A DNA stretch of 36,780 nt from Treponema sp. (GTDB lineage: Bacteria > Spirochaetota > Spirochaetia > Treponematales > Breznakiellaceae): positions 1-36,780 of the forward strand of contig JAIRWM010000055.1 of assembly GCA_031268975.1 (NCBI GenBank), given 5' to 3'. The position numbers and the translations under genes are program-made. The notes beneath the pieces are model-generated. The model made no database searches and was not told the DNA's origin. It saw only the letters and a list, made by a program, of their open reading frames with translations. This document shows, one piece after another, positions 13,192 through 15,869 of this stretch. Within the stretch, counting starts at the first letter, position 1. Every line of letters begins with the position of its first letter.

Positions 13192-14013
13192 TCACAAAAA
13201 CGAACGGACCAGCTGTTCCGTTAAAAGTCCCCAGCCGTCGACCAAAATAAAAAGGATAAGCTTAAACGGCATGGAAATCATCACCGGCGGCAGCATAATC
13301 ATGCCCATGGACATGAGAGCGCTTGCCACTACCATATCTATTATGATAAACGGGATGAACAGCAATATTCCTATTTTGAACGCCACCGTCAACTCGCTTA
13401 AAATAAACGCCGGGACAAGCACGTATGTCGGCACGTCGGCCAGGTTTTGCGGCCGGTCAAGGCCCCGCATCGCCATAAAAAGCCGTATGTTTTCGTAGTT
13501 GCTTCCCATCTGGCTGTACATAAAAATCCGCAGGGGACCTTCCGCTTCACGGTAAGCCTGTTCCACATTTATTTCACCGTCTGCCATGGGCCGGAACGAA
13601 TTGGTGTAAATGGTCTGGAATGTCGGCCACATGATAAATATGGTCAGAAAAAGGCTTATCCCCATAAGCACCTGGTTCGAAGGAACCTGCTGTAAAGACA
13701 GCGCCCTCTTTACAAAATCAAGCACAATGGAAACGCGGAGGAAGCTTGTCATAAGAATGATGATACTCGGCGCCAGTGACAGCACGGTAAGCAGCAGCAG
13801 TAACTGAACGGAAAACGCTACTTCGCTGCCGTTGGCCGGATTGCGGATCGAAAGATCGATAAACGGGATAATTCCGTCTTCCGCGGGAACGGGAAGCGCC
13901 GTCGTACCCTGCGCGGCGCCGGGAGGGAACGCAGTCTGCGCTTCCGAAAAAGACGGTACGCCGAGAAGAAACAGCGCCAAAAGGCCAAAGGCCGGGATTT
14001 TTCCGAAGCTCAT
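13192..14013 (-). CDS. fliP: FliP, export gate protein
   Basis: A 273-residue export gate protein. The ATG at 14011-14013 is chosen because it starts a good signal peptide (MSFGKIPAFGLLALFLLG to about residue 25), lies one base after the fliO stop codon, and has AAGAGG seven bases before it. The frame is open 29 codons further upstream but that part lies within fliO. Conserved FliP stretches follow: LLLLTVLSLAPSIIILMTSF, ALSLQQVPSNQVLMGISLFL and the C-terminal SMGMIMLPPVMISMPFKLI. Membrane helices and length agree with the family. Confidence 0.96.
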   Translation of the reverse strand: MSFGKIPAFGLLALFLLGVPSFSEAQTAFPPGAAQGTTALPVPAEDGIIPFIDLSIRNPANGSEVAFSVQLLLLLTVLSLAPSIIILMTSFLRVSIVLDFVKRALSLQQVPSNQVLMGISLFLTIFIMWPTFQTIYTNSFRPMADGEINVEQAYREAEGPLRIFMYSQMGSNYENIRLFMAMRGLDRPQNLADVPTYVLVPAFILSELTVAFKIGILLFIPFIIIDMVVASALMSMGMIMLPPVMISMPFKLILFILVDGWGLLTEQLVRSFL

Positions 14014-14014
14014 C

Positions 14015-14638
14015 CTAAAACCTCTTGAAACGCTCGCGGCGTTTACGCATATTTTCAATCCGGTCTTCCCTGTCCGTCCGGGATCCCGAAAAACGGCCAA
14101 GCAGTGCCTTAAAACCGGAAATGGGATTTATCTCTTCAGCGATCTTCCCGGAAGATTCAAGAAGCATGGTGTCAATAAGTTCCCTGTCGTTTATGTCCGC
14201 AATATGGCGTATTCCCCCTTCGCCGGATCCGACAAGCCATGCCTTGTCTCCGAGAGACACAACATGAACAAAGCGGCCGCTGCCCAGGTGGGTGGAAGCA
14301 AGTACCTTTATATGGGGATTTTGTTCCACCCTCGGATGTGAAAGGCGGCGGAGAAAAAACATAACCAGATAAATGATGCCGGCGACAAGGGCAAGTACCA
14401 GCACCATACGCAGAACCGCCGGAAAAGAAGGCCCGGCCGCCGCGGCGGGGCTGTCTTCAATGAGATACCCGCGTTCGGCGGCCCGCTGCGGGGGTTCGGC
14501 GCCGGCGTCCAGAGGAAGGCCTCGCTCCGTCACGGCCCCGTCAGGGAGCCCTGTTTCCGTTCCTTGAGAATAGCTGAATTGTGGGCTGAGCAGCGCCGCG
14601 GCCAGTACAGCCAGCGCCGCGAAAAAAAATCGGTTCAG
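14015..14638 (-). CDS. fliO: FliO (treponemal FliZ), export apparatus protein with probable CTG start
   Basis: From the CTG at 14636-14638 the frame encodes 207 residues beginning with a signal peptide (LNRFFFAALAVLAAALL, then SPQFSYSQ). No ATG, GTG or TTG occurs between this CTG and the in-frame TAA five codons before it, while GGGAGGGG sits just upstream at normal spacing. The first conventional start, GTG 14531-14533, would drop the signal peptide and has a poor ribosome site. The mature part has a membrane helix (VLRMVLVLALVAGIIYLVMFF) and a FliO domain (HIKVLASTHLGSGRFVHVVS, then GDKAWLVGSG), and ends in a basic tail. FliO helps assemble the FliP ring. It lies between fliY and fliP, 1 base before fliP, with a 100-base gap upstream that holds a hairpin. 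Confidence 0.85.
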   Translation of the reverse strand: MNRFFFAALAVLAAALLSPQFSYSQGTETGLPDGAVTERGLPLDAGAEPPQRAAERGYLIEDSPAAAAGPSFPAVLRMVLVLALVAGIIYLVMFFLRRLSHPRVEQNPHIKVLASTHLGSGRFVHVVSLGDKAWLVGSGEGGIRHIADINDRELIDTMLLESSGKIAEEINPISGFKALLGRFSGSRTDREDRIENMRKRRERFKRF

Positions 14639-14648
14639 TTTTCCCCTC
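14636..14648 (-). promoter_or_regulatory. Ribosome binding site and CTG start of fliO
   Basis: On the minus strand GGGAGGGG is followed by AAAA and CTG. An in-frame TAA lies five codons before the CTG, so a start here is needed if the signal peptide is made. CTG starts are rare but documented in bacteria. Confidence 0.6.
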
Positions 14649-14697
14649 CCAAGTTAAACTGTCCGGCCACTTTTAATTTATGTGGCTAGAATCTCCC

Positions 14698-14744
14698 GGA
14701 TAAACCGCCGGAGCCGGATTCCCTCCCCGGGGAACGGTTTATCC
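14698..14744 (-). promoter_or_regulatory. Hairpin spanning the fliY stop codon
   Basis: GGATAAACCG (14698-14707) pairs perfectly with CGGTTTATCC (14735-14744). The fliY stop codon (14739-14741) lies in one arm, with a GC-rich 27-base loop. It lies within a 100-base gap in an otherwise tightly packed operon. It could stop part of the transcription, protect upstream mRNA or slow ribosomes; no T-run follows on the minus strand. Confidence 0.55.
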
Positions 14745-15869
14745 CATGTCATTCATACGCTCCATCGGCGATACAATTTCGGTCACCCGGACGCCAAAGT
14801 TTTCGTCAATGACCACTACCTCACCTTTGGCGATAAGTTTGTGGTTTACCAAAATATCTACCGGTTCACCGGCAAGTTTATCAAGCTCAATAATCGTACC
14901 TTCGCCCATGCCCAGTATTTCTTTGATAAGCTTTCTGGTACGGCCCAGTTCTACGGTCATTTCCATGAACACGTCCATGATAAGACCGATATTCCCCTGT
15001 TCCTGGGCTGTCGGCTGGGGAATAAGGCTTGAGAATTGTACCGGCTGTACGCTGGCCGCGTTCATGGGCATACCCATTGCCATGTTCTGCGGCATCATTC
15101 CGGGCATCGCGCCCATGCCCTGCATGCCCATGTTCGGCGCGGCGCCCAGACCGGGCATCGCCCCCATATCCATGCCGGCAAAACTTTGCCCGGCCGAAGG
15201 AGGCGGAGAAGAAGCGCCGCCGAGGGCGCGGGAAATGTCGGAGGAAACCTGGGGGCCGTACACTTCCCAGACCTGGTGGCTTCTGCCGTCGCCCAGAGTA
15301 AGCTGATAGGTCGCGCACATAAACGTTCCGCCGGGAAGGGCCGCTACGGCCTTGGGGACGTTCGCCGCTTCCGGAGATATCGAAGAAATTGATTTATTGC
15401 CGGTTTTGTCGGTCAGGGCGGTAATTTGAGACCCGACAATCTGCGAAACAACTTCGCCGAGCACCGACATTGCCATTTCGTCAAGGGTGATGTTTTCTTC
15501 CTTGTTCATCAGGCTCGCTATGGCTTTTGCTGTTTCTTCCGGAAAGATAAAACCGTGTTCACCGGGAAACCCGGAGTTAAAGTCGGCCTTGACGGCGGTT
15601 ACCATATCGGGGAGCATGCCAAGCAGGTCGTCCCTGGTCATGGCAACGACATTGGGACCCCGGAAACTGACGTCTTTGCCGGTCATCATCGACAGGTTTG
15701 AAGACTGGGCGTCTACGGTACCGGACAGAAAACCCTGCATCGCCCTGCGCTCGTCTTCCGATCCTCCCGAAACCGCCGCGGAGGCGGCAGAGGGAGAACC
15801 AAGAGCGGAAGAATCCACACCCGCCAACAATGCGTCTATTTCATCCTGCGAAAGTGCGCCATCACTCAT
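14739..15869 (-). CDS. fliY: FliY, switch protein with CheC-like and FliN domains
   Basis: A 376-residue C-ring protein. Residues 6-17 (LSQDEIDALLAG) match the N-terminal peptide of FliM that binds CheY-P. Residues about 38-215 resemble the CheC-like domain of Bacillus FliY. Residues about 218-290 are a linker in which 13 methionines fall within about 40 residues, with Gly, Ala, Pro. Residues 293-376 are a clear FliN domain (IIELDKLAGEPVDILVNHKL and GEVVVIDENFGVRVTEI). In the CheC-like part the catalytic pattern E-x-x-N seems to read E-x-x-S (E139, S142), so phosphatase activity is doubtful; that alignment was done by eye. The ATG overlaps the fliM stop by four bases (ATGA). Confidence 0.93.
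   Translation of the reverse strand: MSDGALSQDEIDALLAGVDSSALGSPSAASAAVSGGSEDERRAMQGFLSGTVDAQSSNLSMMTGKDVSFRGPNVVAMTRDDLLGMLPDMVTAVKADFNSGFPGEHGFIFPEETAKAIASLMNKEENITLDEMAMSVLGEVVSQIVGSQITALTDKTGNKSISSISPEAANVPKAVAALPGGTFMCATYQLTLGDGRSHQVWEVYGPQVSSDISRALGGASSPPPSAGQSFAGMDMGAMPGLGAAPNMGMQGMGAMPGMMPQNMAMGMPMNAASVQPVQFSSLIPQPTAQEQGNIGLIMDVFMEMTVELGRTRKLIKEILGMGEGTIIELDKLAGEPVDILVNHKLIAKGEVVVIDENFGVRVTEIVSPMERMNDMG

Follow-up and report, generated by a model that had tools for sequence, protein, structure and literature searches.

The window, by which we mean the whole 36,780-nucleotide stretch of DNA that was analysed, carries the flagellar gene order fliN/Y-fliO-fliP-fliQ-fliR-flhB, in which fliO adjoins fliP in the export-gate operon. 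Read from a CTG codon that lies 100 bases from the stop of the fliN/fliY-type gene, fliO encodes a protein of 207 residues with the N-terminus (f)MNRFFFAALAVLAAALLSPQFSYSQ. The product was identified as FliO by both PF04347 (E 5.8e-12, 46 bits with a cut-off of 22) and TIGR03500 (E 2e-15, 56.6 bits with a cut-off of 55.25). The features of the locus are the following.

13192..14013, minus strand: fliP, with an ATG start just past the fliO stop; PF00813 (E 4.5e-75) and TIGR01103
14015..14638, minus strand: fliO coding sequence, 207 codons plus TAG when read from CTG, the frame being open after the in-frame TAA
14015-14017, minus strand: TAG stop of fliO
14531..14533, minus strand: GTG, the first conventional in-frame start codon, rejected as the start
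14564..14638, minus strand: N-terminal signal peptide-like stretch LNRFFFAALAVLAAALLSPQFSYSQ, recognized by its sequence and by a hydrophobic N-terminus kept across relatives
14636..14638, minus strand: CTG start codon, the only in-frame NTG at Shine-Dalgarno (SD) distance
14636..14661, minus strand: predicted leader hairpin, with the 5' arm CAGTTT (14661-14656), the 3' arm AAACTG (14641-14636, containing the start codon) and the SD in the loop
14643..14650, minus strand: SD GGGAGGGG, 4 nt 5' of the CTG
14650..14652, minus strand: TTG within the conserved ACTTGGG, which in the window is not in frame with fliO
14654..14656, minus strand: in-frame TAA, which excludes any start farther upstream
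14739..15869, minus strand: fliN/fliY-type gene upstream of fliO, with an ATG start; PF01052, TIGR02480 and NF005995 (the last just under its cut-off)

The gene at 14739-15869 is FliY-like: ahead of the FliN C-terminal domain it has a weak match to a CheX-type phosphatase domain (PF13690, slightly below its cut-off). The starts of flhB, fliR, fliQ, fliP, fliN/Y, fliM, fliL and motB are all ATG, GTG or TTG, and the ATG of fliP has an SD of its own.

After the in-frame TAA, the minus strand reads CTT GGG AGG GGA AAA CTG AAC CGA TTT, and no ATG, GTG or TTG occurs in frame between this TAA and GTG 14533. The original prediction had named the CTG as the only plausible start after the TAA and had placed a signal peptide ahead of the first conventional start. 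Both statements hold, given the SD GGGAGGGG 4 nt upstream of the CTG and the fact that a start at GTG 14533 would delete the signal peptide. In relatives, the hydrophobic N-terminus of FliO ending in (S/A)Q is retained, and the fliO sequences align with that of the window from the CTG codon onward.

Of 200 genomes from the window's family that we searched for FliO, 169 have it; we inspected the start regions of 150 family loci, 139 of which had a clear SD together with an NTG codon. Among these 139 leaders the start codon was CTG in 137 and TTG in 2, so that the predicted CTG start is borne out and the ATG for which relatives were to be checked is not what they carry at this codon. CTG-started fliO was present in 47 of the 48 genera represented, in four single-contig genomes (L007, L023, L024 and L117) and also in other families of the class. 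The family loci outside the 139 are in some cases unclear or cut, or have other starts (g9, g11, g23 in part, g27 and g33). When the exact core motif of 20 to 21 bases was sought in 84,980 species genomes, 63 stretches were returned, all from spirochaete records that are mostly metagenome-assembled Treponema or Spirochaetaceae, and in 62 of the 63 the frame that begins at the CTG encodes an N-terminus that is hydrophobic and signal-like. The comparison thus strongly supports the assignment of the fliO start to the CTG, and we hold it with high confidence.

The sole exact match to the core motif without a FliO-like frame (L250, 6712-6731, minus strand; 44 codons) is either a chance occurrence or a broken copy. 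Five draft genomes (G081, G121, G131, G189 and G165) gave two fliO matches each, from mixed bins or true second copies; in G131 the leader is present at both.

Could translation begin at another codon, such as the TTG just 5' of the SD, GTG 14533 or a different codon downstream? Gene callers would favor the TTG of ACTTGGG, which lies in frame 15 bases 5' of the CTG in 67 leaders. Relatives with one extra A have this TTG in frame; in the window, and in some 30 leaders that have one A fewer, it is not, and no SD precedes it. The distance between the conserved TTG and the CTG differs by one base between groups of leaders (30 versus 63), and this variation indicates that the frame is kept from the CTG onward and not upstream of it. 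In close pairs, differences downstream of the CTG fall at third codon positions in 363 cases versus 229 at position 1 and 184 at position 2. In 54 of the 139 family loci, no in-frame conventional start exists between the upstream stop and the CTG. The downstream candidates, GTG 14533 among them, lack an SD and would truncate the signal peptide. Taken together, a start at any of these codons is very improbable. The prospect that the CTG is a sequencing or assembly error in place of a standard start is more remote still: although the window comes from a draft genome of 213 contigs, the identical codon recurs at 137 loci in independently made assemblies, including four single-contig genomes, which refutes it.

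An altered initiator tRNA as the basis of CTG tolerance was considered and rejected. Relatives have the usual GGG-CTCATAA-CCC stem-loop, which argues against a general tolerance of CUG. The only initiator-tRNA stem-loop match in the window's genome is not a tRNA according to ARAGORN, and the initiator tRNA gene is probably missing from this draft assembly.

The region around the start codon is conserved as a leader of the pattern CAGTTT-n-ACTTGGGAGGGGAAAAACTGAA, the commonest form in the family being TCAGTTTGTACTTGGGAGGGGAAAAACTGAA. Its SD is near-invariant (1.7-2.0 bits per position over the last 7 bases); information content stays high across the SD, A run and CTGAA, falls to background more than about 22 bases before the SD end, and is at background outside the leader. 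The predicted folding energy is -7.3 kcal/mol in the window and -7.2 to -8.1 kcal/mol in relatives, and values for the family leader lie between -6 and -8 kcal/mol. When 30 relatives were searched with a covariance model of the family leader (R1), fliO alone came up at E < 0.1; five loci gave no Rfam match up to E = 1, and a pattern search of the window's genome found no second leader-like copy within 3 mismatches. These comparisons indicate that the leader is conserved and specific to fliO. Within the family, the arms are nearly invariant and two-sided changes in them are not convincing; because of this near-invariance the structure is not proved there, and the test between families alone is informative. 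The CTG is kept in several genera that lack the 5' arm (g13, g17, g22, g25, g28 and g69), so CTG and hairpin are separable.

For class Spirochaetia, additional loci were surveyed, twenty of them from families that lie outside the order and others from within it. CTG-started fliO occurs in f2, part of f5, f17, f24, f25, f26, f30, f34 and f35; TTG starts in f4, f7, f23, f31, f32 and others; GTG starts in f15, f20 and single f3 and f5 loci; and ATG starts in f9, f21, f22, part of f5 and most of f3. By sequence comparison, fliO commonly starts at a codon other than ATG in this class, and most of its other families have the SD GGGAGGGG at fliO. The predicted stems differ between families while their pairing appears to be kept: CAGTTT/AAACTG in f35, CAGGT/ACCTG with CTG in f25, CAGTATAA/TTATACTG with CTG in f17, CAACGT/ACGTTG with TTG in f32, TAAAGTGT/ACACTTTG with TTG in f23, TTAATATTCA/TGAATATTAG with GTG in f15 and ACTTCAT/ATGAAGT with ATG in f9. 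Loop lengths between the arms run from 7 up to about 21. Such pairing was slight or absent in f4 and f5 (both of the same order), f31, f34 and f36.

For the pairing tests, one locus per family was used and families were treated as independent. When arms were swapped among 18 families, a family's own arms paired at a mean of -7.81 kcal/mol versus -4.71 kcal/mol for swapped arms (z -6.6, p <= 1e-5), with the own arm ranking first in 7 of the 18. Adjacent 5' segments paired better than distal ones (p 0.004; p 2e-7 among the genera of the family). A test of helix length through the start codon gave a weak result (10/18 versus 31/108, p 0.03), and the pairing claim rests on the energy-based tests. 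These data suggest that a fliO leader hairpin is likely to extend across the class.

Several further observations concern start sites in individual families. The f3 (Treponemataceae) loci L286-L331 have the SD GGGTGGGG, versus GGGAGGGG in the rest of the class, and GGGTGGGG would pair with a neighboring part of the anti-SD. In some Treponemataceae loci of f3 (L317, L318, L321 and L299) no NTG is found at the fliO start, and ACG is the sole near-cognate codon at SD distance. Starts of L042, L300, L292, L298, L319, L320 and L330 are ambiguous, reading ATT-ACG, and those of L275 and L276, from one f5 genus that likewise has no NTG there, read ATC-ACG; the ACG, ATT and ATC codons align with the GTG, TTG or ATG of relatives. 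Natural ACG or AUU starts of fliO are possible in such loci. In L347 (f36), fliO has ATC (GGGAGGGGACAG ATC AAA CGC) where relatives have NTG. Start-codon strength and SD strength are not generally traded off in a simple way: ATG is found together with the strong SD in f5 and in f21, and weak codons occur with GGGTGGGG in f3.

How might such a leader work? CUG accounts for 0.024% of bacterial starts and is about 0.86% as efficient as AUG in Escherichia coli (PMC11497404), and AUG was found replaced by CUG in 2 of 61,358 cases (Sci Rep 2017, PMC5622118). That so rare and inefficient a codon was kept over many genera suggests that selection has favored a weak start. In the mechanism we propose, fliO would be translated from the CUG, and the unusually long SD GGGAGGGG, displayed in the loop of the short leader hairpin, would recruit the ribosome. 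The start codon, held in the 3' arm of the stem, would need to be released before the initiator tRNA could pair with it. A weak codon within a stem combined with a strong SD would give low and possibly switchable synthesis of FliO, at a rate separate from those of fliP, with its ATG start, and of the genes that follow. A regulator might act on the leader, CsrA being a candidate. FliO is described as acting as a chaperone when FliP and FliR assemble, without itself being a subunit of the pore (PNAS 2025, PMC12403147, citing earlier work), and a low or gated supply would be the simplest reading of such a role.

We assign a probability of roughly 0.65 to this explanation as a whole, namely, that the CUG start and the SD-loop hairpin act as a brake on FliO output. 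Comparison gives good support to the start site, the conservation of the CTG and the hairpin; what we infer is that FliO output is low, that this is why the CTG was retained, and that a regulator may act on the leader. The original prediction that the CTG could keep FliO low relative to FliP fits the published efficiency of CUG and the ATG of fliP with its own SD. The weak codon may, however, be compensated by the very strong SD, so that net FliO output need not be low, and we lean only slightly toward a throttle or gate as the function of the leader. A broader version can be put forward tentatively and strikes us as rather doubtful: a class-wide RNA element of Spirochaetia with the start codon in a hairpin and the SD in its loop, driving fliO from non-AUG codons (CUG, UUG, GUG and apparently AUC, AUU or ACG) as a regulated switch that would time the building of the export gate.

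In known CsrA sites, a stem overlapping the SD carries GGA in its loop. The predicted fliO hairpin likewise places GGA in the loop over the SD GGGAGGGG, and csrA is encoded in the window's genome. CsrA sites contain GGA motifs (PMC4894983), and post-transcriptional control of spirochaete flagella has been described (PMC3757020). The CTG and leader could accordingly be the target of a protein or small RNA, for example a CsrA site, with the weak codon merely setting a baseline. This seems unlikely to us: the loop reads ..CTTGGGAGGGGA.. and does not provide the ANGGA context, each genome has a single fliO-type element, a second site was not seen on inspection of the leaders, and the f3 SD GGGTGGGG loses one GGA. 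The DNA at the leader is also near-palindromic, with promoter-like boxes close upstream in some genomes, as might be expected if the inverted repeat were a DNA operator or part of a promoter and the conservation of the CTG a by-product. Against this, the spacing between the arms varies from one leader to another, arm sequences change between families with pairing retained, and the CTG persists where the repeat is absent, all of which make a DNA element improbable. A promoter with its transcript start at the hairpin looked plausible by eye but was dropped as a candidate, since -10 boxes (TANNNT) were not above control (35 versus 27 of 92).

CUG is among the rarest and weakest of bacterial starts, and its retention in dozens of genera of these gut spirochaetes, inside a small hairpin that includes the SD, suggests a built-in brake on FliO output. 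CUG-started fliO offers a clean natural case in which to study the purpose of weak starts, and in which to test how FliO dosage governs FliP ring assembly. There is a practical consequence as well, in that standard gene calling, limited to ATG, GTG and TTG, will misplace the FliO N-terminus in many spirochaetes, either by including residues derived from the TTG or by leaving out the signal peptide.

The retained CTG start of fliO is surprising, and neither it nor the leader hairpin was reported in the literature searched, which left most subscription papers outside its scope. The survey of the FliO family PF04347/TIGR03500 (PMC12403147) deals with the same protein family and the same gene order before fliP; it points out that some FliO proteins have wrongly assigned starts, and its passages on this subject report no CTG start or leader element. 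Non-AUG starts with stronger SDs (PMC5622118) resemble fliO in combining a weak start codon with a strong SD, but that study did not treat CUG genes, and the fliO CUG is kept across a family. CsrA-controlled leaders, such as that of a flagellin mRNA (PMC4894983), resemble that of fliO in that a hairpin loop carrying GGA overlaps a flagellar gene's SD; in fliO the loop context differs, the start codon itself lies in the stem, and CsrA binding is putative.

A parallel may also be drawn with a gene of the translation machinery. The infC gene, which encodes IF3, has a conserved AUU start and is controlled by its own product. As in infC, a conserved non-canonical start has long been retained in one gene, and the retention of such a codon among relatives is what we found for fliO. 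The infC start may allow control of initiation. It is named among non-canonical starts in PMC13009471. Unlike infC with its AUU, fliO uses CUG, its product is an export-gate membrane protein, and it has a predicted hairpin with the SD in its loop.
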